This document shows positions 13,991-61,160 of a stretch of DNA of 64,000 nt, piece after piece. Below the pieces are notes generated by a model. That model had not been told where the DNA came from, ran no database searches, and saw only the letters and a list, made by a program, of their open reading frames with translations. The translations under genes were made by a program, and so were the position numbers. The stretch is from Agelas oroides (taxonomy: Eukaryota; Porifera; Demospongiae; Agelasida; Agelasidae). Every line of letters begins with the position of its first letter. Position 1 is the first letter of the stretch. The DNA is taken from contig OX422184.1 in assembly GCA_949130485.1 (NCBI GenBank), forward strand, positions 11,229,996 through 11,293,995. Reading direction: 5' to 3'.

Positions 13991-14198
13991 GAATTATTAT
14001 TGGAGAGATATTCCTTCATGCACAGTGAGAAGTCTAGCCTGTTGCTTATTGTCATGCTGTTTAGGTCTAAGGCATGCCTGAGGTATTATGGTTGTTAGAA
14101 CACGTGCGTCTTCGGGTGGATCCATTGAAGGATGCTGCGGGTTCCCCATTTGGCAAGGCTGACAGACTTTATCTGTACCTGCATGTTCAGAAGTTGTA

Positions 14199-15836: not shown

Positions 15837-16217
15837 GTGTATGGATAAAGATATCGCTCACATTGTGACTGTGGGCAGTGTGCAGCCACACCACTCTGCA
15901 TCGTAGGTCTGTAGAGTACGCAAGAGGCATGATTTTTTAAATTCGCGCGTGAGAACGGTGAGCTGCAGGAGATGTAAAGCCTTGTTCCCAACAGCATGGT
16001 CCACCTAAGCTTCTAGGTGAATTTGAACAGGTACTCTTGCTGAGATTGATCCTCAACAACTCTGGAATATACCTCCATGAAATTCAGCAAGAGTGGATAG
16101 CCAGATTTGGAGTCAGCGTCAGTGTTGCCACATTCTGCAAGACCCTGAAGTACATGGGCTGTACCAGGCAAGTCATGAGACATGTTGCATTACAGCAAAG
16201 TGATGAACAAAGAGCTC

Positions 16218-22622: not shown

Positions 22623-22773
22623 GAGTACTGATAATTAATAGACATTTTTGAAAGTGTATTTTTAAATGGTACACAAGTACAACTTAGGAGGCATGTAGGT
22701 TACTGAGATGCATTAAGTCATTTCTAACTGATTACTGGACTGATTCAAGGCATAGCTATTTCCCAACAATGTG

Positions 22774-23620: not shown

Positions 23621-24189
23621 ATCTCTAACCAATATGCTGCATTCTAAATTGATACATATATTTTGACACAAACGGCGCCCCATAGTTTTATGGCAGAAGT
23701 GTCGGTATATGATCCTTCCATGCTAATATGGATTGATGAGAGTGGGTGTGATCGTCGACACAGTAGGCACAAACGAGCATATTCTCTCAGAGGAATCACG
23801 CCAGTAGGACTGTCTGTAGTAATCATGGATAATGCCTCTATTCACCATGTCGAAGGTGCTAGACAGTTAATCGAGGACCAAGTAGGCGCTCGGTTATTGT
23901 TTTTACCACCATACTCTCCTGATCTGAACCCCCTTGAAGAAGTGTTCAGCCAGATCAAAAGCATAATGAAGAAAAATGACGCTCTTTTCCAAGTTTGCAG
24001 TGCCCCCAGAGCACTTTGAGCATGACTTTTGGAATGGTGACTGAAGAAGACTGTAAATCACACATCATTCACTCTGGTTATCTGTAAATTAATATTTTTG
24101 ATACAATCCATGTATTATAATGTGATGTTTATCAATGATTATTATTGTCAGGACTAGGGTTACTATTCAACATCTTTAATTAGACTTGG

Positions 24190-25329: not shown

Positions 25330-27240
25330 TTTGCATGGAAGAAGTGGAGTGATTGAATACTCAAATGAATCAACAGCCAAGAGAAACAGTTCATTCAACG
25401 CTGAGAAAACATCGTGGTCCATACCGTTGTAGTGAGCAGATTCCACGCCAGACTTTGAACAGGAAGCGACAGAAGCTGTTAGATTGCACAGAACCTGGAA
25501 ACAAACGGGTTTTGTTTGGAGGACTGTCATGTAGCATGGAACCATGAGTATCAGCATCGTCTTCAGCTTCACAGACAAACAAGTCCAAGGTGTCATCAAC
25601 TGGAGGTAAGTCTGTCACCTGAGGTGTTCTGACAGGCTTTTTCAAGAGGTTGCTCCAATGTTTCTGTAGCAGTGATTTCATTAAGTACGAGCCCACTTGG
25701 TCATAAGCAGCTACGTGTGTCGCCATCAACTCACCACTAAAGCCCAAGCAGACCTCATACAGCTGCTGCAGCTTCACGTTCCTAGAGAAAATCTGTTGCC
25801 GTCATCGCTGTATGTGTTCCGCAAAATGTCTGGCTTATCAGATACCACCAGCTTGGAACCAATTGTCCACACATACTGCAAAACATGCTACACAGTCTTG
25901 TCAGACTTCACAGTGACACGCCCCAATCAGTGCTGTTCTACTTCATGCCCTCAGTCCACCCAGACTTTCATCACTTTATCCATTGGAGAACAACTCAAGA
26001 TTCTCCAAGAGCGTAATTCCTCAGAAAATGGGAGAGTTAATACCCATGTTCTTTGCTAATTTGTTTGCCCATGCACATACAACTAAGTTCTTTCTATCTG
26101 TGGTATTTTCTCATGTGATAAACTTCAACCCTGTTTTACGTGATTGATACTTAACTTTAGGGAATGTTTTGGGAATACGTGGCCATGCATCAGTGTAGGC
26201 AGTGAAATGCTAGTGGCTTGAGTAGGAACAGAGCTATAGTTAAGTTTTTGTTCTCCTAACTTAGGACCGGGATTGTATCAGTCACTAGAATGGAGGAAAA
26301 GGAAATCCATCGGTCACCTAGCAGATATACATGGTGGTCGGCTTTACCAGGCACTGGCATCTGGTGGATGTTTGACAAAAGAGGGATCAAACATATCTGT
26401 GACACTGAACACAGATAGATGGTGTTGTGTTTCAGTCAACAAATTTGTCAATGTAAATATAACAATATAACAACAACAAAAAAACAAATAGCAGAGGCAT
26501 GGAAAGTTGCCACTCATGCTAGCTTGTTCACAGCTATTCAACTTGAGCTAGCTTCAAAACTCTGTCGCCTTCTACATTCTGTAAGTAGTCTGGTTTGTCA
26601 ACACAACTATAGTAGCCCTTATACGCAGTACATACTCACGCTCTAGTTGCGTTTCCTGAAGCCCGTCAGAACTGTCAGAACTTTAAATATGTGAAACAAC
26701 GTACAACATACATAACATATAAATCAGACAAAATCTGCTCACTAGTGTGGGGCTCGCTCAGGCTCACTACAGTGGATATGCTTTTCTACTCAGGAAGCAG
26801 CCAAAGAACATGATTCATGCTGGATTGTGGTGTTCAACTGAGAAGCCACCAATGCAAGTCTTTCTGAAGCCAGTCATTGAGATGCTATCTGAATTGGAAT
26901 CTACCGGTTAGCTTTGTTATATGGTCATGCTAATATATAGTGTCTGCATTTTCGTATTTATATGTGTAATCTGCACTTAGGTATTCAAGTTCATCCACCT
27001 AGCGCTCATGCACCATTCAACATGAAAGTTCATGTCATATGCTGCAGCTGTGATCTTCCTGCAAGAGCCATGGTCCAGAACCTTATACAGTTCAATGGAT
27101 GTTATGGCTGCTGCTACTGTGAACAGCCAGGAAAGACAGCACAGACTGACAATGGTGGTCATGTACACACATTTCCATATATCTTGGATTCACCGAAGGG
27201 GCCACCCAGAACACTTACTTTGACATCAAGTTGTTGCATA
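25330..27240 (+). pseudogene. KDZ/Tnp-type transposase remnant
   Basis: Plus-strand pieces separated by apparent introns. An N-terminal part lies at about 25360-25610. The middle part, 25760-26060, has HTYCKTCYTVLSDF with CxxC pairs. A later piece carries GRLYQALASGGCLTKEGSN and SVTLNTD (about 26330-26415). The next has AGLWCSTEKPPMQVFLKP (about 26800-26900), and the last CDLPARAMVQNLIQFNGCYG followed by CCYCEQPG (about 27040-27130). The LTLNTD, EKPPM.FLKP and DLPARA...FNG.YGC..C series is the signature of the Kyakuja-Dileera-Zisupton and Tnp2-like transposase group. In-frame stops in several pieces (for example after SCSMEP) mark it as dead. It lies head to head with the PB1-like gene. Confidence 0.6.
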
Positions 27241-27299
27241 TACATGTGCAGTTTTCTAACAAGTTATAACAAGTGACTAACTGAAAAAAAAAACATACA

Positions 27300-29362: not shown

Positions 29363-31578
29363 GCCGCTCGGTGCGGTAGCGCTCGAAGCAGGAGGGGCCT
29401 TCCATGGGTGAATCCCAGTTGACAATGCAGAGCGCCTGATGCAGCACACAAGTTCACTTTCGCGCCTGCAAAGAGAAGGAGAAACGAGTGTGGTACAACA
29501 GATGGCACCCTAGAAGGACACTTCCCGATAAAAGGCTCTACAGGGCAATGCTGGTACTGCTGGAATGTCAAGGGAAGGCGGCATGACTCTTGTGTGAGGT
29601 GTAGGAGGTGTGGGAATGAAGTGCTGGTGGAAGTGCATAACGCTGCCTGGAGTTGTAGTTCCCAATCAGCCCCTGTGCCAATTCAAGCCTGAATGACTTG
29701 AATACTTGTTGCCTGATGGTGCTTCTGGTGCTTGGCTGAAAGTATTTCAGGAGAGTAAGCATTCACAGTGCAACAGTCCAAGAGAAACCAGAAGATGTAT
29801 CTGTTGTGGAGAGGGGGAAAAAAAGTTGAAATAGAGAGAATGAACTCTAGTAAGTTCAAAAAGGACAAACCGATAAAACTTGTGTGACCTCATCCGTACA
29901 TGGTAGTAGCCACGGAGTTGGTCAGCTCTATCAACCCCACCCATATAGCTGTTGTACAGTTGGATGCTGAGTGGGCAAGTGATGTTCTCAACATGGCCGT
30001 TCCTGTGTAAATATCAAAATTACACAGGTAGCCATTGTGGCTGTCTGCCCTTACCCACACCTTGAACCCACATTTGATGAGCTTCATGGGAAGGTACTGC
30101 TTGAAGGAGGATCTTCCTTTAAATTTGATCATGGCTTCATCGACTGCATTCTCTCTGTTACTTTCCAGTTGCCTCTCGCATTCCCCGGAAATGATTTATG
30201 GAGCTCTCCACCTACCTGCACTTCACCAACAATGAGAACATTGTGGCACGTGGACAGCCAGAATATGACCGTCTTGTGAAGGTACGCCTGGTGATCACTG
30301 CTCTTCAGAAGTCATTCGTTGGGGCATACAACCCTCACATGCAACTGGTCATTCGTTGACCAGTAGTCACGGATCTCCCAAAGTGATGGATGGCCCAACT
30401 GGTTCTGAAAATTCCAGAATGTTGACTGTGCAGGGTATGTCAGGCCATTCTGTGTCCTCATCACTACTCTCACCACCTACACCTCGTCCATGACCACGAC
30501 TACCAATTCCACGACTGCCACATCCACGACTACCATGTCCACGACTGCCACGTCCACGACTACCATGTCCACGACTGCCACGTCCACGACTGCCACGTCC
30601 ACGACTGCCACGACCACGACTGCCATGACCACGATTACCACGTCCACGACTACCACGTCCATGACTGCCACGTCCACGAGTACCACGTCCACAACTGCCA
30701 GGTCCACAACTGCCATGACTACTACCCTGTCCATGGCCACTACCACCATGACTATTCTCTCCATTATCACTGTTCTGTTCTCTTTCTTCCTCAGAAGGGG
30801 ATGGTGACCAAGACGGATCGACTGGGGATGGAGGTGGTGACTGAGACATATCAACTGGGGACGGAGATGGTGACTGAGACATATCAACTGGGGACGGAGA
30901 TGGTGACTGAGACAAATCGACTGGGGATGGAGGTGGTGACTGAGACATACCAACTGTGGACGGAGATGGTGACTGAGACAAATCGACTGGGGATGGAGGT
31001 GGTGACAGAGACATATCAACTGGGAACGGAGATGGTGACTGAGACAAATCAACTGGGGACGGAGATGGTGACTGAGACAAATCGACTGGGGATGGAGGTG
31101 GTGACTGAGACATACCAACTGTGGACGGAGATGGTGACTGAGACAAATCGACTGGGGATGGAGGTGGTGACAGGGACATATCAACTGGGAACGGAGATGG
31201 TGACTGAGACAAATCGACTGGGGACGGAGATGGTGACTGAGACAAATCGACTGGGGATGGAGGTGGTGACTGAGACATATCAACTGTGGATGGAGATGGT
31301 GACTGAGACAAATCGACTAGGGATGGAGGTGTTGACAGAGACATATCAACTGTGAACGGAGGTGGTGACCAAGATGGATCAACTGGGGATGGAGGTGGTG
31401 ACTGAGATAGATTGACTGGGGTCGGAGATGGTGACCGAGATGGATCAAGTCGGGGTGGAGGCAGATTAGATGGTGAGTCAGAATGTGGAGTTAGAAATAG
31501 ATCATAATGCATAAGTTTTCCAGGTTTCTGCATAGCCAAAATACGTAGTGTTATTGATAAGTTTTTATATGCTTTCAT
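29363..31578 (-). pseudogene. piggyBac transposase with coding segments on alternating strands
   Basis: On the minus strand: a long Pro/Ser repeat and RGSRGRGSRG tract (31578-30440), PDIPCTVNILEFSEPVGPS (about 30440-30385) and EIRDYWSTND (about 30375-30345). Then on the PLUS strand, about 30147-30358: FPVASRIPR, FMELSTYLHFTNNENIVARG, EYDRLVKVR and YNPHMQLVI, the section that should come next. Back on the minus strand from 30146: DEAMIKFKGRSSFKQYLPMK, GFKVWVRADSHNGY, MGGVDRADQLRGYYHVR, FRLELAQGLIGNYNSRQRYA. Then on PLUS again, 29432-29617: APAKRRRNECGTTDGTLEGH and the Cys-rich GQCWYCWNVKGRRHDSCVRC. Finally minus 29437-29363: LCIVNWDSPMEGPSCFERYR to a stop. About 200 residues with catalytic aspartates are deleted between IYTG and the VENITCPLS segment before MGGVDRADQL. 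Intron-like sequence (GTTTGT...CAACAG) lies near 29865-29810. The family call is secure. Confidence 0.85.
30485..31470. repeat. 33-bp and 15-bp coding minisatellites in the piggyBac N-terminus
   Basis: From 30800 to 31470 an imperfect 33-bp unit encodes, on minus, the 11-residue repeat SPSPVDLSQSP. From 30485 to 30720 a 15-bp unit encodes GRGSR/GHGSR. Both keep the minus frame open. Such proline-serine and RGS tails are foreign to most piggyBac transposases. Confidence 0.85.
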
Positions 31579-43370: not shown

Positions 43371-44982
43371 CCCAACAGCCTAAATTGCATAAGAATGGGT
43401 CCTTACTACGCACCCTAATACGTAACACCACCAGTTGGAAGGTCGGTCTCAGTCTGCTGTACCAGTCATCAGCACTTCTCGTGCCCCTGTAGATGTTGAC
43501 AGTAGTGACAGTGAATCAGCATCCATAGAAGTGATAGAAGATGCAGTCGTACACACGAGTCGGCAAGAAATGCTAACTGAGCAGAGTGAAACCTCTGTGA
43601 AGGTACCATTTTCACCACCTTCTACTAGTTTTGATCATCAGCCAACAGAAGAGCAACAGCTATCAGCAATGTTTCCTGAACATCCTTCATCGACAATCAG
43701 CACTGTTTCGGAGCTGACGCAAGGCAATATGCAGATGGCTGCGGATAAGACCCTTTCACCACCACCACTCACCGCTCTTCTGCCTCACGAACAGACTCCT
43801 CGCTGTCACTCACTGCTATTGAAGGGAGTAAACCACTCATTTCATAATTCTTAGGTGAGTTCAAGAACACCTTCCCTAGAGAATAACCTGCATACTTAAA
43901 AACATGAATTTGCTTTTGAAACACCTGGCCACGAGCAGCAGTGCATTGTTTCTTCTGTGGTAGGATGGAGAGTCGAACTTTAGCTAGCTGACGCCTGGAA
44001 AAGCGCTTTGGACGCCGTTTGAGCATAGCTTGAGCACTGAATGATGTCAGAATTGACCTTGCTGGTGTAGATGAATGGCCCATTGTAGAAGCCTTCAACT
44101 TGTTTATCTGTTAGTAAAATTTAAGAGAATGTTCCCAAATGAACTTCATTTTGTATCCCATGCAGTAGGCAGCTCCACAGTACCTATTGACAACCTTTGA
44201 TGTCAAGTGGATGCATCTCAACTGGGAACTATTACCTCCCACCACCCACCATTTTAATTAAACACTCCAACAGTGGATTCCGTTGGCCTGGGAAAGGGGT
44301 GGTGCTGCCAAGAGATAAGATATCTTGTAAGCGAGTGCAGCTTATTGTCGACGAAGATGATTAAACTTGCGATGTTTCATAGTGTAATCGGGTACTATAA
44401 AGTACCAAATTTTGATTCCACTCTTGATATGCGAGTTAGGTTTCAGGGTCAGCCTGCAGTCGATACAGGTGGACAGGTTTACATCTGTGTTCACAACCTT
44501 TCCTAAGCTATTTCACAGATCAACTTGAAGGTCTTCTGTCTAGTTGATATTTTGTCTAATCACTTCCTCTAAGTTTGTGACAGTTCAAGGTCAACATGAC
44601 CTTTTCAGAGCCGTAAACCAGATACATCCTTTCCTGTTTTGATGTCAACAGTAAAATGGTATCGTTCATTTAGCCTTGCAACGTCCACTGATCTCAACCT
44701 ATTTGAGCATGATGGCCAGTTTCTTCGGCCATGATACAGCGCCCAAAATGTGATGTCCAACCTCATGATCATTTTAGGGAAAATGATTGCACAAGCACTA
44801 GCACTTGAAGGAATTGGCTTTCCCTACTTCAGTCGCTGTAGCTATTGGTATGTAGACACTGGGAATCAAACCCAAGCACTGCAGTATGCTGGATTAGAAG
44901 ATGTCAGCCCACATGTGCGAGAGGTGCTATTGCAGGTAAATTTTGCAACTGTAAGCCCAATAACTGGGTATTTAGTATCAGT

Positions 44983-45248
44983 TGTAACAAGTGAACAATG
45001 TACAGACAATAAACACATGCATTCAATAACTGATGTCAGACTGTCTGTCCCTATCAACTTGTTCTGTACCTGACTTACCCATTCTTGTAAACAGCTCTTA
45101 CCTGTTTTTGTAACTGCATTTACCAGTCTGACCATATGTGCCTATATAAGTGATCACCCTCTTCTCTGAAATGAGTATTATGATTCAGTGAAGTTCATTG
45201 CTGTATGCTGATCGCGCAAGACAAAGAGGGCAGTCGGGAAGCGTTACA
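44983..45248 (+). repeat. 5' LTR of the Gypsy fossil
   Basis: 266 bp, TGTAAC...GTTACA, with a TATATAAG TATA-like box (about 45143) and an AATAAA signal near 45007. Confidence 0.92.
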
Positions 45249-48200
45249 CTGGTGTCAGATGTGGGATGTCGTCTGACAGTGAAGGAGAAGGGCTGCATAC
45301 AGAACCCACTCGCTTCGTCCGTGTGAGCCTCCGCCCTCCACCGAGATATACTGCATCAGCTGATTTGGACCTATGGCTGAAGCGGTTCGACCTTTATGTG
45401 CGGCAGACTGGAATACCTGAGGACCAGTGGGCGGCGGAGCTGCTTCCACTTCTGGATGATACAGTCTTCCGAATCATACTGCAACTCGGTTTAGCGGAGT
45501 CGACGGACTTCAACATCATTACAGAAAGCCTCAAACAACAGTTTTCACCAAAGGGAAACGAGTTGGAGTGGTAACGTCGGCTGCAGACCCGTAGGCAACA
45601 ACCAGGAGAACAGCTGGTGCAATATGCTGGAGCGTTAAGGGTGCTGGCAGACAAAGCATACACGAACTGGACAGCAGATCAACGGGGTGAAGTACTCAGA
45701 AATCACTTCATTGAAGGAGTATCGTCACCCTCTGTACAGCTCAGGCTGATGCGCGAGATGCCGGTTACGCTTGATGCCGCTCTTAGCCTCGCTGTCCAGC
45801 AGCAGTCGGTGGAGATGGCGCGACAGCGCCTGTACAAGGAGATTCACCGAGGAGATGCCGCGGCTATGGCTCTACAGCAACGCGGCGAGGAAGAGGGAAC
45901 GCAAGCTGATCCAGCCGCTTCAAACGCAATGTCGCGGGAGCGAGCTTGTGGAACTTGTGATCCTAGATTTGATGAACTGTCAAAAGAGTTACGCCGCCTC
46001 TCTTCTGAGTTAGCCCAATTTCGGAGCGATCGAAGCCGAGGTGAACGGCAGCGGCGGCAGGATCAGCGAGGGAAGAGTGGTCCAACATGCTGGAAGTGTG
46101 GCAAGCGTGGTCATGTTCGTCGGAACTGCCCTCACTCTCAGACAGAAGGTCGCCCAGAAAGAAGTTACAGGTCAATCACTGCAACCAACAACTCTGCACT
46201 AATAGTTGATGGGGTTGTTGAAGGTCGACCTACTAAGATGTTAATTGATTCCGGGTCAGCTGTGACTATTCTATGCGAAGATGTCTGGAAAGCAGCCTGC
46301 ACCAAACCATGCGGCTTAGACACTCCTGGCCTACCGGTAGGGAGAAACTCTGGACCTCTTAGGGCAAACACCTGTCTCCCTGCAAGTTGCTGGTATGAAA
46401 GCTAATTACCCATGTTTGGTGACAAGTGAACTAACCCAAGAGTGTATCATTGGAGCAGACTTCCTGCTAGAGAACAAGTGGATCATTGACTTGCACAACC
46501 GGGCACTACTGGCCGGGGGACAGACTACACAGTTTCTAGTCCAGGGGAGCTCCGGATCCAGTCCGTCAATCTGTCATATCTTCTTTCCAGAAGCTACTGT
46601 ACTGCCAGGAAACTCAGAAGTGCAATTTCCCCTCTCCCTATCCACAGTTGCTGATCAGGGTATGGCTATTTTGGAGCCTGCTCCAAAGTTAGTTGAAAAA
46701 CATGGTGTTCTAATTGCACTTGACAAGATGCTGAAAAACGGAATCACTGGTCCTCACCAATTGTCCTGGTGAAGAAAAAAGATGGCACCACAAGATTATG
46801 CATTGATTTCAGGAAAGTGAATGATCTCACCAAAAAGGATGACACATTGGACACTCTGGGTGGAGCCCAATGGTTCTCAACACTCGATCTTGCAAGCGGT
46901 TATTGTCAGGTGGAATTTGACCCATTTGACAGAGAGAAAACAGCCTTTGCCACTCCTGATGCTCTCTACCAATTTCGTGTTATGCCCTTTGGGCTATGTA
47001 ATGCACCGGGAACATTTCAACGTCTGATGGAACATGTCCTGCGAGGCCTTCACTGGTCTACCTGTCTGGTCTACCTAGATGACTGTTATTGTTTTTAGCA
47101 CGACAGTTGAAGAGCACCTGACTAGACTTGCTGAGGTGCTCACTAGGCTGCAGCAGGCTGGATTAAAAGTGAAACCATGCAAATGTCATTTGATGAAGAA
47201 AAGTGTGCATTATTTAGGGCATGTGGTGTCTAGTGAAGGGGTTGAGACAGATCCGGCGAAAATCCAGTGCATTGCAGATTGGATGACTCCCTCAAATGCA
47301 AAAGAGCTGAAGCAATTCCTGGGCTTAGCTTCATACTACCGGAGGTTTGTCAGAGGGTTTGCAAAGATAGCCTCACCCCTTCATCATCTCTCTGAAAAGA
47401 AGAAAGCCTGGGCTTGGACAGATGAGTGTGAGCAAGCTTTCAAGTTGTTGAAGCACCACTTGATTTCTGCTCCAATTCTGAGGCTCACAAACTTCAGCCA
47501 GGATTTCATCCTTGACGTAGATGCCAGTGAAGATGGCCTAGGAGCTGTTCTATAACAACTTGATGGTTATGAGCAGGTGGTAGCCTATGCGAGTAGAGCA
47601 CTGACAAAAGCTGAGAAAAACCATTGTGAAACTAGAAAAGAGCTGCTTGCATTGGTTTGAGGAGTGTGCCACTTTCGTCCTTACCTGTTTGGTCATATGT
47701 TCATCACCAGAACAGACCACAACTCTCTCAAGTGGCTTCACAACTTCCGGGACCCTGAAGGACAAGTTGCCCGCTGGCTGGAAATACTAGCTGAATACAA
47801 TTTTCAAGTGATACACTGACCAGGCTCAAAACACTCCAATGCGGATGCACTTTCCCAACTACCCTGCCGACAGTGTGGTTACAGACAACCAGATGACGAG
47901 GAGACAGCTACCAGTACACACCTTGAGAAGGACGAAGACATAGCAGAAGTGTCAACAATATCACCAAGTGATTCCTGGGCCTCACGTTGGAGTGTGGAGG
48001 AGTTAAAGTCCTCACAGGCTGCTGATACCGCTCTCAACCAGATGATCACCTGGCTCTCTTCAAAGTCTGTGCCATACCGCGTCCTGAAAGATAGTAGTAT
48101 TCAACTACAATCCTTGTGGACACAACAGCATTATTTGCTGCTGAAAGATGGAATTCTCTATCGTCGTTGGGAAGATGTCCCTGGTAAGGGACTTCACAAG

Positions 48201-49608
48201 GGACTGCAACTTGTCCTCCCACAGCAGTTGGTAACAGAGGTACTGACCAAGCTGCATGATGCTACTACAGGTGGCCACCTGGGAGCAAAGAAAACACCCG
48301 AAAGAGTGCGCACCAGATTCTACTGGGTTGGCCAGAGACGAGATGTCGAAGAGTGGTGCAAAACTTGCCAGATATGTGCAGCCAGGAAATCTGAACCAAA
48401 GAAGTGCAAAGCTCCCTTGCAAATTGAGCCAGCCAAGTACCCACTTGAACGGATCGCAATGGATATCCTGGGCCCATTACCAGAAACAGAACATGGAAAT
48501 AAATACATCCTGGTAATTGGTGATTATTTCACCAAATGGAAGGAGGCGTACCCCATGAGAAACATGGAAGCTACAACTGTTGCCAACATCCTGGTCCACG
48601 AGTTCATTTCCCGCTTTGGTGCTCCCAAATACCTGCACACGGACCAGGGTCGAAATTTTGAATCCGGGTTTATTAAAGAGAGCTGCTCACTTCTGGATAT
48701 CAAGAAGACCAGAACCAGCCCTTACCATCCTCAGTCTGATGGAAATATTTAACAGAACCCTACTAAACATGCTCAGTACAGCAGTTGACAAAGATCAAAG
48801 AACTTGGGATCTACAACTGCCAATGCTAATGCTGGCCTATAGGACCAGTATATAGGAGACAACTGCAGCAACCCCCTTTTCTCTCATGTTTGGGCGCTCT
48901 GCTCAACTATCAATTGATCTTGAATTCATTCTCCCAGTAGTGACTTACAATAGTCTCAGTCAGTGCCAGAAGCAGTTGCGTGAGCAACTCCAACAATCGT
49001 ATAACATGGTTCGTCAGCACACGCTAAAGGAACAAAACCGGCATAAAGATCTTTATGACCAACATGCACATGGTGCCATGTATGATGTTGGAGACAGAGT
49101 ATGGCTGCATTGTCCTGCTGTACCAAAAGGCCACTGCTGAAAGTTTCATCGGCCCTGGCAGGGGCCATTCACTATTGTGAAAGTCATCAACAGCACTGTA
49201 TATCGTATTGAAAGTAACACGTCACCCCGCAAACGATTAGTTGTGCATTATAATCGCCTGAAGCCATACTATCCTCCCTTTAACAAAGACCTATTTGGAA
49301 GCAGCCCAGTTCCAACACAGAAGGAATCAGTCCATACTTCTAATCAGAATCACCAACAAGATGAAAATGCTGATCAACAGAATGAAAAGGCTGTGTCAGA
49401 CACCACACCTCAGGCTACAGAACCAGCAGTACCTCAACAAAATCTACAACCCAGTGTCTCAACCTCCCCAGCACCAGACCCACCCCTTCGATGATCCAGC
49501 CGGAGACGACATCCTCCAGACCGATATGGAACAGTCATCAGTTATCCAGACTGTTATTCCTCTGACTCCGACACTTGATGCAAGGATGCATCAAACTAGG
49601 AGGAGTAG

Positions 49609-49880
49609 TGTAACAAGTGAGCAATGTACAGACAATAAACACAATGTCATGTATTCAATAACTGATGTCAGACTGTCTGTCCCTATCAACTTGTTCTGTA
49701 CCTGACTTACCTGTTCTTGTAAACAGCTCTTACCTGTTTTTGTAACAGCACTTACCAGTCTTACCATATGTGCCTATATAAGTGATCACCCTCTTCTCTG
49801 AAATGAGCATTATGATTCAGTGAAGTTCATTGCTGTATGCTGATCGCGCAAGACAAAGAGGGCAGTCGGGAAGCGTTACA
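49609..49880 (+). repeat. 3' LTR of the Gypsy fossil
   Basis: 272 bp, matches the 5' LTR with a handful of differences and one small length change. Confidence 0.92.
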
Positions 49881-50089
49881 TCAGTTAATATCCAAAGCAT
49901 GTTGTGTAGTACTGGAAATTGCAGATTTCGTGATGATTTGTGTGATAGTTGTAGTTTTATCATTTTTTTTTTGGTTCTAATTTATGCAGATGTCCAGGGC
50001 CACTACTGATGAAGACTTAGATGTGATACGTGAGGTGTTTATCCACCTCTCTAATATTGGCTCCTTGCAGTTGTTGACTGTGAGTAGAT

Positions 50090-51160
50090 ATTAAATTCAT
50101 AGCTGAACTTGCTTAACTCATTGCACACCAAAGAATTTTGGTTATTAAAGCAGCGTTTTTATGTCTTATAGTCACAGTAGACTGGCAAGCAAGCAGACAG
50201 GCATACCAACTAGGATGCAAGGAATGCCTGTGCAGTGGATTTGTGTAGATACTGTGTATATGTGACCCGCTAAGCGAAAACCGGGCACGTCGCGCATTTT
50301 ATGAAAATCGAGATAAGACCGGAAATCGGCGCGGTATACCAATGTGTAATTGTGCGGCAGGAATAAAAAAGCGATCGGTTGCTTGGTTCCCGAGCTACAG
50401 AGCGAAATGCGTAGCAGATGCGGAACGCTACTTTTCGAGAAAATGCAATGTTTTAATGTTTTGCTACAGTAAATTTTAATGTCTCCCTATACTATCGTGT
50501 TACGTAAATTTACACGTGTTCTTGTAAAAAAAAAGCAGGTTGAAGTCGGCAAAGACAGTCGTCGGGAAAGACAGCGGTTATAAAAGCGGGGGCTTACATT
50601 GTGTCTATGGACAGAAAGACAGCCGTATCATATCAGGAAGTTTAGGGAAATTTGCTATTGTCACTTACACTTAGTGTGAAGTGGACTGTTAGCACATAGC
50701 ATGGCAAGAAGTAATAGGGAAATGCTTCAGAAAATACTCCTAAAACCTTCTATCTTTCTCTCAGGTAAGTAAAACACCTTTTCCAGGAGTGCAGAAACAA
50801 GATTATTCATTTTCAAAGCAGTTTACACAAGTAGGACATCTGTAGAATCAGATTTACATGCGTCAAAATGGGCTACAAGTGGAAGACCTTCAATAGAACC
50901 CCATACTTTTTTTATGGAGGGGCGTTCACACTTTTGACAGTGACATCATTGAGGGGACTTCCCTTCTGAACGCGCGCTATTATTGTCTTTTCCAGGGTTT
51001 CACGTGAAAAGGAAGTGTCTAAGGACTGTTTAGATACCAGTTTTCTGTCTTTTGGTGGAGTTTTAGATGCGTCAATTTTGATTAGTAGTAAACTGAGGTC
51101 AAAGTGTGGCAACTTGCAACTGTCTTTTTGAAGACACTGATCTACTGCAATACGACTAGT
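50090..51160. other. No domain recognised; possible upstream exon
   Basis: A short frame MARSNREMLQKILLKPSIFL at 50701 ends at GTAAGT (about 50765) and could be a 5' exon of the next gene or of an unknown one. The phrase GTGACCCGCTAAGCGAAAAC at 50263 may be a transposon end, with no partner found in the window. Confidence 0.35.
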
Positions 51161-51162
51161 TC

Positions 51163-54136
51163 ATGATGGCTGAAAGTGCAACACCTACGGCGGCCTCTGG
51201 AGGTGGCAAAACAAGTTCAGGAGCAACCAAGACCGCCCAGATAAAGCAGTGAGTGGGCTGTTATGATACATCTGGGGAGCCACAACCCCTTCCCTTACTG
51301 GCCTTAGTGTTTATCATTATCTGTTATCACCTATGAGGCTTAAATTGTGATTTATCAGGCTTAAATTATGAGTTAGTGTGGACCCAGGGAATCTACGTGT
51401 TAGTGTACAACAGCTGGATGTCGCCTGTTAAAGCATTTTTGACCAGAATCAAGATCTTTGAGCATATTAGAAAAGTATGCTTGATTGCTTGATAGTTGCT
51501 TTCAAAGTGATAGTTTTGTATTTTTGGGGTCAGTTTGGTGACTCTTAATATAGACCATTTTGATTCTGGTTGCAAACAATAGAGATGGAAATTAATGTAC
51601 AGGTATTTATAGTTTATCACCTTTAAACATACAGGAGAGTGTTGTATGAGCTATACACTGCTGAGGGAAAGATGCCCTCTGCCCATGATGTTCTAACCCT
51701 TCGGAAATGGACCAAAGCTGTTGCAACAGAAAGTGGAATCAAGCTCCGGACAACACATTCCATGATGTATAGAATCTGGAAACGTACAACAAGAGTAGTT
51801 GCCGAATTTAAGCGCCTAAGACATGGTCGGCAACAAGCAGAATATCTTGAGCGCAACTGGAACTTGACGCTGAAGCTGGGTGATATCCAAACTGCAAAGG
51901 ATGTTGCATTGGAAGAAAAAGTTTCCACTGTTTTGGAGAAGAACAAGGCCTTGAAAAAGGAGAAGATACAATTGGAGAAGGAGAACAGTCAGTTGAAGCA
52001 GTCAAGAGAGAAGCTGAGTAGAAATGTTCAGAGGTTATCAAAGCAGATGCAGAAAGCCAGAGCTGACGGTTACCAGCCATCCCGTGGCCACAGTCGTGTG
52101 AAGTCCCCAAGCAAGTGCACTGCACGTCACCAGAGAAATCTCAAGAGGAAAAGACTAGATAGCTGTAGTGAGTCCCTGTCGTGGTTGGAAGCAGAAGGTT
52201 ACACTGCCACAAGAGTCGAAATTCGCAATGATAAGACGGGTGAGACAGAGTTATTGCAGCTTGATCCCAACAGCCTGCTGGACACAGATGAAACCATATC
52301 AGAAGAGCAGGCGAACATTGTGAATATGCTTTTGTATGTCAAGGATAGACACAATGTGTCAGGGGATGCCTACCATGAAATGGCTCAGCTGTGTAAAGCC
52401 ATGCCTCGACATTACAAGTTGAAACAACGCATCACGGAGCTCAACAGGCTTTGGAACATCCAACCTACTCCAGAAGGCACCTGTGGAGTCCAGCAGTCCC
52501 TTGAAGAGCGATTGAAGTACTGCCTTCAACATTTGGTAAGCTACATTTCTTTTCTTGCATAGCTGTGTAAAGTAGCACAGTTTGGTTATATATGGAGTTT
52601 GCACTGGCACCTTTTCCAGTTAATGCCTACTGTTAATGATTATAGTATATACCAGCTAGACCATTCTTTTCAGGAGTGAGTTAGGTCTGGGGACGGGGCT
52701 ACTGTAACATACTCTATAAGTTATATGTTTCTTTGCAACAACAGATCTATTCTGGTTCGAATCCTAATGCCGAATTCCTGAGGGACAAGAAAGTGCGTGT
52801 GAAGCTGACAGGTGATGGGACAAGAATAGGCAAACACCTTCATGTGGTCAATTTTGGATTCACACTGCTAGATGAGGGTGATAAAGCTTATAGTCCAGCA
52901 GGCAACCACTGTTTGGCTATCTTCAAGGAGCCTGAGTCCTACCAATCGCTGAAGAACTGCCTCAAGGATATCATCAGTGAGGTAAATGCCTTGTCAACTG
53001 TCATGGTCAATGGTGTCACATTTGAAATTGTGTACTACCTGGGAGGTGATTGGAAGTTCTTGGCAATAGCAACAGGCATTGACAGTGCTTCTTCAACGTT
53101 TGCCTGCATTTGGTGCAAATGTCCAGCCCTTGATCGTCATAGCTCCACGCAGCGGTGGTCAATGCTTGATCCAAACCATGGGGCTCGTACTGTCGAAGAG
53201 AATATTGCTCTTGCTGGGTCACGTTCAAAGCAAAAATACGTTTCTAATGTGCCACTATTCACAAATATCCCACTTACTCGTGTTGTTGTCGACAATCTGC
53301 ACATGTTCCTGCGAGTTGCAGATACGCTCATTGACTTGCTTATCCATGACCTTCGACAGCTTGACAACGTCAATAAGAGTATGAAGGTACAGAATCTCGA
53401 GGGCTTAACACACTTAAGTACCTTCCAGCATATTGTGCAATCCATGGGAATTCCTGGGTACATGTTCTGGATTGGAAGAGAATCAAAAAAGCTTAAGTGG
53501 AGGACATTAACTGGCCCCGAAAAGTTGATCGTGTTTCGCAACATCAACATCCCAGAAATGTTTCCAGAGGTTGAAAATGGAGATGCAATTCAGAGTTTGT
53601 GGAAAGAACTCCTTGACATCAACCAGCTTTTATCAACCAGACCAGAAGACGTAACACCTTATACCAGTTGCGAGTTTGAAACACGCTCAAAGGCATTTGT
53701 CGACAAATTTGTTGAAATTTTCCCAGCAAAATTTGTCACACCGTACATGCATTGTATGATGATGCACGTTAGTGAATTCATGACGCTACATGGTGCAATT
53801 ATACCATTTACTCAGCAAGGCCTCGAGAAATATAATGACTTGATGACAAAAGACTACTTTCGATCCACCTCTCACCGGGGAGAGCAATGCTTGAAGCAAA
53901 TCATACAGAAACAAAATAGAATCGAACATCTTGAAAACATGGGAGTGAAACGACAAAAGAAACATGAAGTAACCTGCAGCAACTGCAAAGTGCAAGGACA
54001 CAATAAATGGACCTGCCAGGCATCCTGTGCCCATTGTGGTGAGAAGCCTTTCCAGAGCCATCTAGTCTCTGTGGGTTCTAAGAAAGTTCCAAAGTGTCAA
54101 TCAGAAAATGCCGAATCATACAGTGTAGCATATTGA
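51163..54136 (+). CDS. RAG1-core-like DDE transposase, three exons, apparently intact
   Basis: Exons 51163-51248, 51635-52535 and 52745-54136 have consensus GT-AG borders and join in phase into 792 residues without stops. Residues 1-28 are Ala/Ser/Thr-rich. About 30-110 is basic, and about 110-170 is a Lys/Glu coiled coil (LEKENSQLKQSREKLSRNVQ). From 330 a catalytic core: D353 in KLTGDGTRIG, D431 in YLGGDWKFLA, C450 and C453 in ACIWCKC, then RTVEENI, VVVDNLHMFLRVADTL, H665 and H670 in MHCMMMHVSEFM, and E690 in QQGLEKYN. In vertebrate RAG1 the second D to CxxC gap is 19, the His pair is HxxxxH, and E lies 20 after the second His. All three spacings are identical here. A CX2CX3GHX4C knuckle (CSNCKVQGHNKWTC) follows near 725, like the C-terminal knuckle I recall for RAG1-like transposases. 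Likely a transposon enzyme; Transib or CMC kin are alternatives. RAG2 and RSS-like ends were not found. Confidence 0.75.
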
Positions 54137-54225
54137 CTTTGACTTTGTTAAGCTTTACTATATATAACGATCATCGGTAAATGCCGAATCATACAGTGTA
54201 ATATATTGACTTTGACTTGATGATA
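54095..54225. repeat. Direct duplication of the gene's 3' end
   Basis: The last coding bases and stop (AATGCCGAATCATACAGTGT and ATTGACTTTGACTT) recur about 70 bp downstream with two or three changes. A small tandem duplication at the junction with the satellite. Confidence 0.8.
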
Positions 54226-54249
54226 ATGATACTAAATTTGCCCACTCTT

Positions 54250-55655
54250 AGAAACATTGTTTATCCCCATCCCATTTCAACCCCACCTTCACCGCACACC
54301 TAATCCAAGATTAAATTTAGACTGTTGATGTTGAATGGAGTCTAATGATACTAAATTTGCCCCCTCTTGGTTCATTTTCATCTCCCATGTTTGAAAAAGC
54401 TATGGGTATCTAGTGTTCGGTGAGGTGAAACATTGTTTATCCCCATCCCATTTCAACCCCACCTTCACCGCACACCTAATCCAAGATTAAATTTAGACTG
54501 TTGATGTTGAATGGAGTCTAATGATACTAAATTTGCCCCCTCTTGGTTCATTTTCATCTCCCATGTTTGAAAAAGCTATGGGTATCTAGTGTTCGGTGAG
54601 GTGAAACATTGTTTATCCCCATCCCATTTCAACCCCACCTTCACCGCACACCTAATCCAAGATTAAATTTAGACTGTTGATGTTGAATGGAGTCTAATGA
54701 TACTAAATTTGCCCCCTCTTGGTTCATTTTCATCTCCCATGTTTGAAAAAGCTATGGGTATCTAGTGTTCGGTGAGGTGAAACATTGTTTATCCCCATCC
54801 CATTTCAACCCCACCTTCACCGCACACCTAATCCAAGATTAAATTTAGACTGTTGATGTTGAATGGAGTCTAATGATACTAAATTTGCCCCCTCTTGGTT
54901 CATTTTCATCTCCCATGTTTGAAAAAGCTATGGGTATCTAGTGTTCGGTGAGGTGAAACATTGTTTATCCCCATCCCATTTCAACCCCACCTTCACCGCA
55001 CACCTAATCCAAGATTAAATTTAGACTGTTGATGTTGAATGGAGTCTAATGATACTAAATTTGCCCCCTCTTGGTTCATTTTCATCTCCCATGTTTGAAA
55101 AAGCTATGGGTATCTAGTGTTCGGTGAGGTGAAACATTGTTTATCCCCATCCCATTTCAACCCCACCTTCACCGCACACCTAATCCAAGATTAAATTTAG
55201 ACTGTTGATGTTGAATGGAGTCTAATGATACTAAATTTGCCCCCTCTTGGTTCATTTTCATCTCCCATGTTTGAAAAAGCTATGGGTATCTAGTGTTCGG
55301 TGAGGTGAAACATTGTTTATCCCCATCCCATTTCAACCCCACCTTCACCGCACACCTAATCCAAGATTAAATTTAGACTGTTGATGTTGAATGGAGTCTA
55401 ATGATACTAAATTTGCCCCCTCTTGGTTCATTTTCATCTCCCATGTTTGAAAAAGCTATGGGTATCTAGTGTTCGGTGAGGTGAAACATTGTTTATCCCC
55501 ATCCCATTTCAACCCCACCTTCACCGCACACCTAATCCAAGATTAAATTTAGACTGTTGATGTTGAATGGAGTCTAATGATACTAAATTTGCCCCCTCTT
55601 GGTTCATTTTCATCTCCCATGTTTGAAAAAGCTATGGGTATCTAGTGTTCGGTGT
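54250..55655. repeat. 176-bp satellite, eight copies
   Basis: Period 176 bp measured from successive AAACATTGTTTATCCCCATC starts (54252, 54428, 54604, 54780 and so on). Copies 2-8 are essentially identical; copy 1 joins the flank through a shortened start (CCCACTCTTAG). The last ends in GTGTTCGGTG and is followed by unrelated DNA. Near-identity implies very recent expansion, ongoing homogenisation or an assembly effect. Confidence 0.95.
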
Positions 55656-55789
55656 TACTACGCTCCGCCCCTCGAGGGCTTCTGAATGAAACCTTACATA
55701 ATACTAGGGGAGGCCCTACTCTAACCACAGACCGGATACAAAGCTTGTTGCTAAGAGCCCACGGCTGTAATAAAGCTTAAGTGCATCCG

Positions 55790-55862
55790 TGACGCTTATA
55801 AGCGTCTATCGCGCTTTGACGTATTGACGCTTATAAGCGTCTATCGCGTATAATCGGTTAAG
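55790..55862. repeat. Paired palindromes GACGCTTATAAGCGTC
   Basis: The 16-bp palindrome followed by TATCGCG occurs twice, 32 bp apart, before CGGTTAAG. Resembles piggyBac-type subterminal palindromes. Confidence 0.55.
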
Positions 55863-55926
55863 CTTTCTGAAGTCTCTTGCATGCCTGTCCCACAGCATTG
55901 AAACAGACGCCCACACGGCTTCGAAT

Positions 55927-56480
55927 TCAACTGGGTTTGATCAATATTGTGAGAACTGTTCGAACTTTTCTTCCTTCAGTGTTTAATTCATCGTTAGGCA
56001 GGGCAGGCAGTACTCGACTACCGCCGGGAGTACACTGTGCAAGCACATCATCACCAAAAATGGCTTCTCGTGCCAGCTTGACAGCTAGTGTTCCAGCTTT
56101 GCTGTCACCTCGTTGCTTGGGGTGCTGCTTAATAACAAGAGCAGGTACCTGCAATTTTTCTTTGTTGATTGCTGACGATGGCAATGCGTTGCTGTCACTG
56201 GAATAGGTTTCGGTCTGGGATTAGATGCAGGACTGAAAACTGATGTACCTGGAGGCGTCAGAGGGGGCTGTAATACTTGAGGGCTATCCATTGGAGGTTG
56301 TTGATATGGCTGATGTGGCTGGGGAGACTGATACATCTGGACTGGAAAGTCTAGTAAGAATCACTTGTTGGTTGTCTTCAATCACTTGCTGCTTTGCTTC
56401 CATTGCCAGGACTTTGCTCTCCAACTCACGTACAGTGATCTCAAAAGCAACTATTCCTCACTTCAGAGCCCTCTGACCGA
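55927..56480 (-). pseudogene. BEN-domain gene fragment
   Basis: The minus strand from about 56150 reads QVPALVIKQHPKQRG then SKAGTLAVKLAREAIFGDDV and LAQCTPGGSRVLPALPNDEL NT-like text, which fits the first half of a BEN domain (a DNA- and protein-binding fold of transcriptional regulators). Upstream minus sequence holds a proline/glutamine-rich stretch (QPHQPYQQPPMDSPQ, about 56330-56240) and a coiled-coil piece VRELESKVLAMEAKQQVIED (about 56440-56370). The second half of the BEN domain is absent, and frames do not join cleanly, so I call it a fragment. It might be host or transposon-borne; BEN genes are often multi-copy in sponges. Confidence 0.5.
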
Positions 56481-56831
56481 GCTTGCAGCTAGAGCAAAAA
56501 AAGGAACTGCATCTGCACCAAAACAGACAAAACCATCTAAAGGTAAATGTCTGAGAGTATACCAGCTTCATCTACAACATCTATACTGTTCGATTGCAGA
56601 AAGTCTAGTAAGAATCACTTGTTGGTTGTCTTCAATCACTTGCTGCTTTGCTTCCATTGCCAGGACTTTGCTCTCCAACTCACGTACAGTGATCTCAAAA
56701 GCAACTATTCCTCACTTCAGAGCCCTCTGACTGAGCTCGCGGCTAGAGCAAAAAAAAGGAACTGCATCTGCACCAAAACAGACAAAGCCATCTAAAGGTA
56801 AATGTCTGAGAGTATACCAGCTTCATCTACA
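56345..56831. repeat. Tandem duplication of a 233-bp block with the coiled-coil piece
   Basis: 56345-56577 and 56599-56831 match almost exactly (offset 254 bp), from GAAAGTCTAGTAAGAATC to CAGCTTCATCTACA. The coil of the BEN gene is thus present twice. Confidence 0.9.
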
Positions 56832-56834
56832 AGG

Positions 56835-57525
56835 GGTTAACGGTGGCCTTAGATTATTCTTGAAGAAGGCGATACATGCTAATCCCATGTATGAACTTTT
56901 TATTTATTAGGTGAGGGATCTATTCTTTGTGTTGTCAAACATGATAGTTCAGTTGCAAACTATAAAAACCCTTTGGTCTTCTATCCTACAACCAGCTTTA
57001 ATATTCTAGTGTTATTATCCTATGTAATATGATGTACACTACTAGTGCAATAGTTATGGGCACGCGTGGGTAACAGTTGGCTGAAATCACGCGGGGTATG
57101 TCTTCTCTGAAGACCTCTAGTTTGGTGTATAAATTTCAGTTGCCAGGTAGTGAGCATTGGCAGCCAGCAGCTCCAAGGTAGAGAAAGATAGTGTTTGGAG
57201 AAATGTCTGCGTTGGATTAGACCGTTCATAAATAATTAATGAGGTCAGAAGCTTTGATCTCCGTGATGACGGGAATTGTTCTATTTGCATAGACTCAAAT
57301 ACGCTACCTTCCGTGACAGCGCGAGCTCGAACGCACGCTCAGTATGTCGTTTCGTGTCTCCTTTTCATGAAAGCTGGCATGCAATGTCGAGTAGCTACTG
57401 GTTTTTCCACCGCTGTATCTTGTTCAGACTTTACTTTCTTCTCTTCTGACTATTTCCAGCGTGAAGAAGGTTCGTTTCAAACCAAGCGAAGTGTACTGTA
57501 AGTGAATGTACAGGATGTTATATAC
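56835..57525. other. No gene; partial dispersed-repeat match
   Basis: 57400-57490 (TTTCCACCGCTGTATCTTGT and following) matches the 7187-7757 family. Otherwise nothing was recognised. Confidence 0.45.
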
Positions 57526-57529
57526 AGAT

Positions 57530-57768
57530 GTGGCAGTCCCATGTAGAAATTGAAGGTTATTCTGTCGCGTATTTCGATCGCATTGCTGCGTTCAAAGCAC
57601 CGTATCGCTGAACTTCCATTAAGGGCGGGGCTCATACGCGCTTCGTAGATTCATGCTTCTACGAAGCGCGTATGAGCCCCGCCCTTAATGGAAGTTCAGC
57701 GATACGACACAGCGATGCGATCGAAATACGTGACGGAATAACCTTTGATTTCTACACGGGACTGCCAC
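57530..57768. mobile_element. Palindromic MITE, 239 bp
   Basis: Almost the whole element folds on itself: ends GTGGCAGTCCC and GGGACTGCCAC, and a perfect core pair GGGCGGGGCTCATACGCGCT with its complement around a short loop near 57650. AGAT flanks both ends (57526-57529, 57769-57772), a possible target duplication. Outer arms have diverged slightly, the inner ones not. Confidence 0.75.
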
Positions 57769-58331
57769 AGATATTAAATTGGACGACTGTGGCAAGCAGT
57801 CCAGACAGATTTGTAAATGACCACTCAACATCAAAAGTGCTTGGACATAGTGACCAGACAATCAATAAACTGTATTTCAACCTCTGCTATATAGTCTCCA
57901 TGCAATGATAACTATATCCAGCTATGGTGTTAACTTCAGTAAGTCCTCTCAGGCTTATTCAACTTGGCATGCCAGACTTTTTCTCAGTGTGACAGTGTGA
58001 CATCTAATGTTTCATAACGTTATTGGATATCAGAATGTGTAAACAAATTAATCTTGTTGACAAGAGTTCAGCACTTTCCAACAGAGAATTGTTGGTGACA
58101 GGCATCTTTCTAAACATAGTCATTACCCCGTGAAATTATGGGGTAGTTTATTCTGTGCAAACGGTAGATACCAGGCCACTTTTCCTTTGTGGAACAAGCA
58201 AGTAGATATTTATCATCCCCTTGTATCTGCAGGTTGAGGTCAAAAGTGGACTGTCATCATTGCCTGTCACCGTTGATGTATAACGCTAAGGCACATTCGC
58301 GATATGACCGAGACATCGTTGGTAGTGATAG

Positions 58332-58517
58332 ATGGCAACGGCAACTGCAACAGCAGTCCCACGTTCCTTTTCAGCGTCTGGGGTCATCCGAGGATACCAC
58401 ATAGAAGAAAAAGCAACAACGGTAAAAGAACCGGGAAACAAACACGACCGATTCGCAGTAGCGGTGCTCGAGGACGAAACGTCGGTCAGAATCTGCAATC
58501 ATCACAGTTTGCGGTGA
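58332..58517 (+). pseudogene. HIRAN-like exon fragment
   Basis: The frame reads FSASGVIRGYHIEEKATTVK then EPGNKHDRFAVAVLEDETSV. The VIRGYH...EPGN.HDR.AVAV pattern matches the HIRAN domain seen in SWI/SNF-type helicases and in many stand-alone invertebrate proteins. The middle (usually W.P..GE) is shortened, and the C-terminal half is missing. Start MATATATAV at 58332 is plausible. Alone and short, so a fragment or first exon. Confidence 0.5.
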
Positions 58518-59049
58518 GTCGGCTCGTTTTTCTTGGTCGTCCAGGATCTCGCTTTGTTTGCTCCGTTGGTGGTTCAGCGCTAGGTTTACACGATTTCGGA
58601 AGCGGAGCATCCTTCTGGAGCTTGTTGTAGTTACTGCACTGTTAAAATAGAGGTGTGAAATTAACACCGGTAGTGTTAAAGTAAGCATATATCTGCAGTG
58701 CAAGTATCAACCCATGAGGTGTAGTATAACACTTGGTTGTTTAGTTCAGCACCAGCATGGCTTAGTGTAAACCACCATGGAGTAGGATTGACACCAATGT
58801 GAGGTTCACATGATACACGCAAGAAAGGGAGGTGTTATACCAACACCAGGAGTGCTATTTATGTAGTGTTAAAGTTAACCCAGTAGGTGCAGTGTAGCAC
58901 TACATGTTTTACTTTAGCCAACATAGTTTAATTTAAAACTCTAGTGTAGAAACAGCACCAACACTAGGGTTTTTAAGGTTCATACTCTAGTGCACCTCAG
59001 ACAAGAATTTCCTGAGTACATTTCATAAAACATACAGATAGCTACTTTA

Positions 59050-60660
59050 TTACACACTTCCTCGGTTAATTTGCTACAATACATTGATGTTAAACACCTT
59101 GAAACAATTGCTGACATCGATTTGAAGGCTCTATATATCATGGACTTGCTAAAATTTGGAGTTAAACATATAGTGGTAAAACTCCAGACGCTTGCTGCGG
59201 TGGGAATCCGTGCAGAGATGCAGTTTCGAGCCTGCTATGTCTCACTGGGTAAGTATTTCCGTGCTACGCATGCGCATACTGAACTTCGTACTTTGCACTT
59301 TGTACAATCGCGTGATTTTCGGCGCGCGGGCAGCGCAGCAGCTGCCGATTTCTCTTGTGTGCGATTTGAACCTTTTGTGGCCTTTCCCTGGTTTGTAACT
59401 TCTAACTTTTGTGATTCTAGCAACCTCCTACTGTTTTAAAGTAGTCGCTTTCGACGTTTAAAATGTGTGCGCATCCCACGCTTGCGAGTCGGCGTATCAC
59501 TGATCGTCGAATCGGTGACTGTCGCATCAAGGACAGCTGGAAGATGAATGCTATAGTCAGCACGCACTGGGTTGGACTTCGCTCCCCCAGATTCCAACAG
59601 GAGAATAGACAGTATTGTTGGAGTCCTTCTACCGCGAGAGACAGCAACAAGACAGTGGAATCAGCTATCATAGTGAGTTGCAAGCAATAAACTCTAGACT
59701 AGGAGATTGCCAGAGCATGCATGCAGTGCACAACCTGTATAACTGTATCTATAGGCTTATTTTGTATACCAACATGCAGTTGATTTCACTGTACAGAATG
59801 CCATTATACATGTCTATATTTGTAGCTGCTCAAGAAGCTCAAAGCTGAGGATGTGCTATATAACAGAGAGTATCAACTGAGAGAAAATGAGGGGAAACGT
59901 TTGGAGTGGCAAAGCTGTGTGGACTAAGCCAATGACGACTTCTCTACTACAGGTGGCGGATAACATGGTAAGACAACATTCAACAGGAAGCCACATGCGT
60001 GATTCAATTAAGATAAATTTTTCATGTCAATATTTTCATAGGCCATCATTTTTACACAAAAATTGTTAACGTTGAAATTTGTTTAGCAAGGCAAGGGTGG
60101 ACTTGAGGGATTCAGCTGCTGATGAGCTACCACTGGCCAAAGACTTAGCTGTATTTGTGCCTACCATTATGTACCTTGGCTACAATCACTTGTGAAGGCA
60201 GATGAATAAAAAACGACTCCTTGCTTCGAAGGTGAAATTGTGAAACCAATGCACTGCAATGGAACTATTGCCTCAATCTGAGTCAGTTGATCTTACCCAA
60301 GACTTTTATGCCTAGCGCTCAAGTTCGTCGCTAGCAGTACTTACCCCACAGGCATGTCACTAGCTTGAGCTATATTTTCATGTAGCATTGTTTAATACTT
60401 AGCTATTGAAAATTTTTCGGCAGTTTAATTTTTGTTGCTGTCTAGGTCTACAAAATATGTTAACACCAAAATTTTTCCAATTTACAAGATATATAAACTG
60501 TCTCTAACAGCGTGTTGTGTCAATCTTCTCCATGTAGAGAATGAGTGTGCAGTAGCTCTGCTCCTGTTGTTGATGTGGTACAAAACTGGAGTCGGCTTCA
60601 GTTGTTGGAGGTGAGGTTTACATTTGAGTAAATGCCTCCTCCTCACTTTAGACTAAAATG
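59050..60660. other. No gene recognised
   Basis: Several short open frames without domain character; nothing supportable. Confidence 0.4.
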
Positions 60661-60665
60661 TAGTA

Positions 60666-61160
60666 CCGTAGTCTCGCGAAAAAGGGCCCATGGGCGGAGC
60701 ACCTTACAAGTCTGCCAAAGAGGGGGGTGGGCGCTCTTTCGGGTGTTTCTGCATTTAACCACGAAAGAGTGCCCATGTCTTGTTTACAGCGACTCGATGC
60801 CCTCGAAGCAAATAATTGGACAAACAGTAACGTACAACGGAACCACCAGCGGCTTCGAAGTTGAGTCCTAATGGCACACAACACTCTGAACGGCACCACG
60901 TCACCGTGAGCATGGTGTAGCTCGCAGTGCATACCGCATTAGCTACGTCCGTCTACGCAAAGATGCCTTGTAGCAACTTTGGTGAAGTATTACACGAAGT
61001 TTCGTACCTCAGATACGCATACTGTGCTTCTCAAACTCCATGCGAAGCTCGCTCCAGGGTGGGCGCTCGTTCGAGTAAACTTTGACGCTGTACAGGAAAT
61101 TGGGTGAAAAGTAGGGGGTGGGTGCTCTTTCGTAAGTGGGCCTTTTTCGCGAGACTACGG
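60666..61160. mobile_element. mariner-type MITE with TA duplication
   Basis: Inverted ends CCGTAGTCTCGCGAAAAAGG and the mirror CCTTTTTCGCGAGACTACGG, flanked by TA on both sides. Both subterminal regions share GGGTGGGCGCTCTTTCG-type phrases. 495 bp, no transposase. Confidence 0.8.

Follow-up and report, generated by a model that had tools for sequence, protein, structure and literature searches.

A probable divergent DDE transposase of the wider RAG1/Transib-related clade in the sponge Agelas oroides

The gene located at positions 51163-54136 (+) of the Agelas oroides stretch analysed here (64,000 nucleotides in total, hereafter the window) probably encodes a divergent DDE transposase of the wider RAG1/Transib-related clade, at a roughly Transib-like distance from RAG1. 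This clade was named CMCT in PMC12730594. The last exon of the gene encodes what is, judging from its alignments, a distant relative of RAG1. By the features that we tested, the predicted protein belongs in the CMCT clade; it would be a CMCT transposase whose coiled-coil N-terminus is unusual, and it is possibly catalogued elsewhere.

Gene structure and reading frame

The predicted protein comprises 792 residues encoded by three exons joined in frame, as the preliminary description of this DNA had proposed. Exon 1 (51163..51248, +) runs from the first ATG to the donor GTGAGT. Exon 2 (51635..52535, +) encodes residues 29-329, that is, the N-terminus, the coiled coil and the region in which RAG1 carries its NBD, DDBD and pre-RNase H. 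Exon 3 (52745..54136 including the stop codon, +) encodes residues 330-792, with the RAG1-like catalytic core, the zinc-binding insert and the C-terminal knuckle. Both introns start with GT and end with AG; the exon model was built from splice signals and the frame alone. The longest open run within 51001-54300 spans 483 codons. In 1000 mononucleotide shuffles of the same segment, the longest run averaged 91 codons and never exceeded 213, so the frame did not arise by chance. It is open and looks intact, in line with the earlier reading of the gene, and D353, D431, C450, C453, H665, H670 and E690 are each present at the residue number assigned to them.

Similarity of the catalytic core to RAG1

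The phmmer search of the PDB with exon 3 returned vertebrate RAG1 as the best match (E = 3e-4, 23.1 bits, 319 query residues aligned). Vertebrate RAG1 constructs occupied ranks 1-15 of the 21 distinct sequences found at E ≤ 10; these are constructs of a few proteins and do not count as 15 independent matches. All matches at E < 0.005 were vertebrate RAG1 chains. The whole protein gave E = 0.0014 against the PDB, and the reversed exon 3 gave zero matches at E ≤ 10.

RAG1 was also the best Pfam family, both for exon 3 (E = 0.0014, 17.3 bits) and for the whole protein (E = 0.0041, 15.7 bits), for which a coiled-coil family came next at 0.0045. The profile search that had been suggested as a check thus ranked RAG1 first, but both scores fall short of the Pfam RAG1 gathering score of 25. 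None of the Pfam controls, namely the reversed exon 3 and four local shuffles (of eight generated), matched the RAG1 model; chance matches to other families appeared in three of these five sequences, the best with an E of 0.028.

Smith-Waterman alignment of residues 385-720 with RAG1 640-1000 scored 218, compared to 49 ± 7 for composition shuffles, against which significance was measured (z 22.9; 0 of 500 reached the score). The aligned span paired residues 385-711 with RAG1 656-981, which covers catalytic and zinc-binding regions of RAG1, and contained 79 identities in 299 positions (26% of the aligned core columns). In a residue map merged by hand from two alignments to RAG1, 95 of the 336 pairs were identical. 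The claimed homology of the catalytic half with the RAG1 core is therefore borne out by the PDB search and by the rank of RAG1 among the Pfam families.

Chance resemblance, or convergence on the DDE pattern without any relation to RAG1, is extremely improbable. The Pfam scores under the cut-off would be compatible with it, as would the folds, which were not predicted with confidence. AlphaFold without an alignment modelled exon 3 with a pLDDT of 39 and residues 335-460 with one of 53. Foldseek runs with both low-confidence models returned nothing at E ≤ 0.001, with RAG1 absent from the best 50 matches of each. The strand order in these two models resembles RNase H, to which we give no weight. 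The z score of 22.9 across 299 aligned residues and the reversed and shuffled controls, none of which matched RAG1, argue against coincidence and for distant kinship with RAG1.

Key residues and their spacing

The default local alignment to RAG1, which was unguided, paired six of the seven key residues, all on the forward strand. D431 (53048..53050) paired with RAG1 D708, the cysteines of C450-x2-C453 (53105..53116) with C727 and C730, the histidines of H665-x4-H670 (53750..53767) with H937 and H942, and E690 (53825..53827) with E962. In the hand-merged residue map, H515 within the motif DNLH (53300..53302, +) aligned with H795 in the DALH of RAG1. The spacings D-19-C-x2-C, H-x4-H and H-20-E proved to be the same as in RAG1, and the zinc-binding insert between C453 and H665 measures 212 residues versus 207 in RAG1.

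The seventh residue, D353 (52814..52816, +), paired with RAG1 D600 with soft gap penalties only. With cheaper gaps, D353 was placed opposite D600 in a weaker match covering residues 346-384 (z 4.4, 1 of 500 shuffles reaching the score). Under default gaps, it lay outside the local alignment and opposite M627 in the end-free alignment, and in a local alignment of residues 340-425 with standard gaps it stood opposite RAG1 residue 611 (7 of 500 shuffles reached that score). D353 and D431 are 78 residues apart, versus 108 in RAG1; the D353/D600 pairing needs cheaper gaps because RAG1 has 30 extra residues between the two aspartates.

The sponge protein and vertebrate RAG1 (e.g. 9jpu_A, 4wwx_B) have in common the DDE triad, CxxC, HxxxxH and DxLH, their spacing, and the insert length. 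They differ in that the sponge protein is 30 residues shorter between the two D residues, carries F and L at the places aligned with R848 and W893, respectively, and adds a zinc knuckle in the tail. Three acids, the second and third of which (D and E) enclose C(2)C and H(3-4)H, form the core pattern of the CMCT clade (EnSpm, Mirage, Chapaev, Plavaka, ESTA, Lanisha) in PMC12730594, and this pattern is present in the sponge protein. A difference from that clade is the lack of a Pfam Transposase_21 match.

N-terminal half

The preliminary description had placed a coiled coil in the N-terminal half, and a heptad-rich stretch, likely to form one, was indeed found at about residues 118-173 (51900..52067, +). 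In the best register, 69% of its a/d positions are hydrophobic, and it gave weak matches to coiled-coil Pfam families. Pairwise alignments of the exon 2 region (residues 100-345) with RAG1 389-599 were not significant, with 44 and 162 of 500 shuffles reaching the scores. The 16-residue match of VSGDAYHEMAQLCKAM with LSCSQYHKMYRTVKAI, at the expected site of the dimerisation domain, is a mere hint, because 152 of 500 shuffles scored as high. In this respect the protein differs from vertebrate RAG1, since the NBD, DDBD and pre-RNase H are undetectable in it by pairwise alignment. In contrast, RAG1 389-527 still finds the lancelet RAG1L with an E of 1.6e-4.

C-terminal tail

The CCHC knuckle reported downstream of the core is present: residues 740-753 (53975..54016, +) form a CX2CX3GHX4C zinc knuckle that reads CSNCKVQGHNKWTC. 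A Cx2Cx3GHx4C motif after the catalytic E is a likeness to the RAG1L of RAGL/ProtoRAG (6b40_A), and PMC7204232 treats it as the defining motif of the invertebrate RAG1L C-terminal tail. This tail was termed CTT1 and is present in subgroup I Transibs as well (PMC9435367). The position of the knuckle after the core would fit a RAG1L tail, with low specificity.

As evidence of kinship the knuckle alone is weak, because the Gypsy Gag ORF of the same window (45575-46405) has a knuckle of identical spacing, which reads CWKCGKRGHVRRNC. The C-terminal 93 residues do not resemble the RAG1 tail, the alignment score being reached by 321 of 500 shuffles. A 75-residue piece with the knuckle gave 43 PDB matches at E ≤ 10, among which USP33 was the best (E 0.0023) and RAG1 and RAG1L were absent. 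Given this lack of specificity, we do not accept the knuckle as demonstrating kinship with RAG1L.

Distance from RAG1L and Transib

The catalytic region of mouse-type RAG1, used as a phmmer query, matched the lancelet RAG1L (6b40_A) at 2e-69 with 238 bits and HzTransib (6pqn_A) at E = 0.0029 with 19.8 bits. At 23 bits, the sponge protein therefore lies at a distance of the Transib order, and a claim that it is a RAG1L fails by this measure. With HzTransib, an accepted relative of RAG1, as the yardstick, phmmer recognises the sponge protein no less readily. By these bit scores, the connection with V(D)J recombination drawn in the preliminary description is of much the same closeness as for HzTransib and falls far short of that for the lancelet RAG1L.

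Transib and the sponge protein resemble each other in their distance from RAG1 (19.8 and 23.1 bits) and in that a RAG2L was recognised in neither. HzTransib was not matched by exon 3 in the PDB search (E ≤ 10). In the HzTransib core, compared over 63 residues, N-K-x-F-R-R-F-R after the catalytic E is common to RAG1 and HzTransib; the sponge protein lacks it and reads NDLMTKDYFRSTSHR. The surroundings of the last E are SEEASEARNKDFRRFREHHSRK in HzTransib versus TQQGLEKYNDLMTKDYFRSTSHR in the sponge protein. By the stretch after the catalytic E, RAG1 and HzTransib seem to be nearer to one another than either is to the sponge protein, though one short stretch is not decisive.

It is very unlikely that the gene belongs to a RAGL element, that is, encodes a RAG1L of the direct RAG1-RAG2 line whose RAG2L partner was lost or lies elsewhere. 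Such an origin would agree with RAG1 being the best match, with the full-length zinc-binding insert and with the Cx2Cx3GHx4C tail. Against it stand the 238 bits between RAG1 and the lancelet RAG1L versus 23 between RAG1 and the sponge protein, and the NBD, DDBD and pre-RNase H, undetectable here although RAG1 389-527 still finds the lancelet RAG1L. Furthermore, a Pfam scan of ten ORFs of the window, including six in the flanks of the gene, gave no match to RAG2-like kelch or PHD domains. RAGL elements have a RAG2L and ends starting with CAC; neither was found in the ORFs and flanking DNA searched.

Ends, copies and neighbourhood

The search for inverted ends with target duplications in 44000-61000, with exact 7-base seeds, found none above decoys; decayed or distant ends would escape it. 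The best observed score was 19, compared to 20-22 in the eight highest of the 20 decoys, in which 5-base blocks were shuffled (an earlier first pass had no null model). One CACWRTG-type heptamer is located in 49001-51163, at 49640 within the Gypsy LTR copy 49609-49880, and three CAYWGTG heptamers are located in 54137-60000. No pairs were found among these flanking heptamers. A second copy of the protein was not found within the 64-kb window.

The gene is unlikely to be a single-copy host gene domesticated from a RAG1/Transib-related transposase. Domestication would be in accord with the intact spliced frame, with the ends and duplications undetected in 44000-61000 and with the absence of other copies from the 64 kb; against it, several other transposon fragments lie in the window, and a single locus in a single genome cannot show conservation. 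We infer the transposon origin of the gene from the protein. The gene most likely originated as part of a DNA transposon of the cut-and-paste type that had no RAG2 partner. The present copy may still be mobile, may be a remnant that has lost its ends or may serve the host as a gene.

The window contains other repeats and mobile-element fragments. Its spliced genes and its Gypsy, Tc1-like and piggyBac-like pieces are in keeping with an animal genome. Upstream of the gene, direct repeats at 44983-45248 and 49609-49880 (94.9% identical) enclose pieces of Gypsy-type gag/pol ORFs (45575-49491); this element has the appearance of a decayed LTR retrotransposon, because the gag/pol pieces are split over several frames. 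Downstream, a tandem array of a 176-bp unit (54251-55654) begins about 115 bases past the stop codon and consists of seven complete copies arranged head to tail plus one of 172 bases, 100% identical, which may reflect either recent amplification or an assembly effect. The opposite strand carries a partial copy of the unit at 1403-1459 (77% identical). Two direct copies of a segment of about 233 bp lie almost side by side at 56345-56577 and 56599-56832 (97.9% identical), and a block of about 1.7 kb with tandem repeats inside is duplicated at 11850-13546 and 14191-15838 (96.4% identical).

An integrase-core ORF of 405 residues lies at 21420-22634 on the reverse strand (Pfam rva_4, E 5e-69, plus helix-turn-helix matches). 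Fragments at 23648-24016 (+) and 29750-30013 (-) match DDE_3 (E 2e-20) and DDE_Tnp_1_7 (E 3e-5), and from the family names we take them to be Tc1-like and piggyBac-like, respectively. The ORF at 26941-27273 (+) weakly matches Transposase_21 (E 0.014) and may be a piece of an EnSpm-type transposase. We considered this 111-residue fragment as an outgroup. It was uninformative, as it resembles neither the sponge protein (z -0.5, 206 of 300 shuffles reaching the score) nor RAG1 (z 0.6, 82 of 300).

Relatives elsewhere

Relatives of the sponge protein were not found in tblastn-confirmed scans of IMG/VR and GTDB genomes, nor by tblastn of phages and plasmids. Two degenerate DNA patterns retrieved 3 viral, 81 genome and 8 viral stretches, and tblastn of these 92 loci revealed no relatives of the sponge protein or of RAG1 (best E 2.8 and 0.34). 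Because the collections hold prokaryotes and viruses, absence from them is uninformative on animals. Among the open-licence PMC papers listed, no title dealt with sponge RAG1-like transposases or with the present architecture, which is no proof of absence from print. PMC8355894 and PMC12220107 likewise contained nothing decisive.

We consider the chances slightly better than even that the family is already catalogued, as a Transib of the subgroup I type, a Chapaev, an ESTA, a Lanisha or similar, which would be compatible with a CMCT transposase. Some animal proteins that are multi-copy and unnamed have strings similar to those of the sponge protein. Subgroup I Transibs are reported in PMC9435367 to retain alpha11-12 along with the CTT1 tail. 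According to PMC4411706, Chapaev and Chapaev3 were assigned to the Transib superfamily, and Chapaevs are known from the lancelet and the starlet sea anemone. ESTA was tied to RAG1 by HHpred in PMC12730594. On the other side, exon 3 had no HzTransib match at E ≤ 10. A Chapaev is recognised by a Chapa zinc-finger domain ahead of the core, with a RING being optional; the Pfam scan of the N-terminal half of the sponge protein gave no zinc-finger match.

Possible mechanism and implications

As a CMCT transposase, the sponge enzyme might use its N-terminal half and C-terminal knuckle to bind the ends of the element, with the coiled coil contributing to dimerisation. It would then nick each end, and the freed 3′ hydroxyl would cut the other strand. 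Cleavage by RAG1 and Transib leaves a hairpin on the flanking DNA. The excised element would be inserted elsewhere.

We tentatively consider a less probable option, in which the gene represents a separate animal RAG1-like lineage outside RAG1L and Transib, with a full zinc insert, a CCHC tail, independence of RAG2 and a coiled coil replacing the nonamer-binding and dimerisation domains. In RAG1, the zinc-binding insert is the region to which RAG2 docks. If such a lineage were real, parts of the RAG1 machinery would date to before RAG2 joined. If the gene merely represents another catalogued CMCT family, it is ordinary and its significance modest. RAG1 relatives beyond RAGL and classical Transib may help to separate ancestral from added components of the V(D)J recombinase, among them the zinc insert, the tail knuckle and the end-binding domains. 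With its different N-terminus, an intact copy would offer a testable enzyme for comparison.
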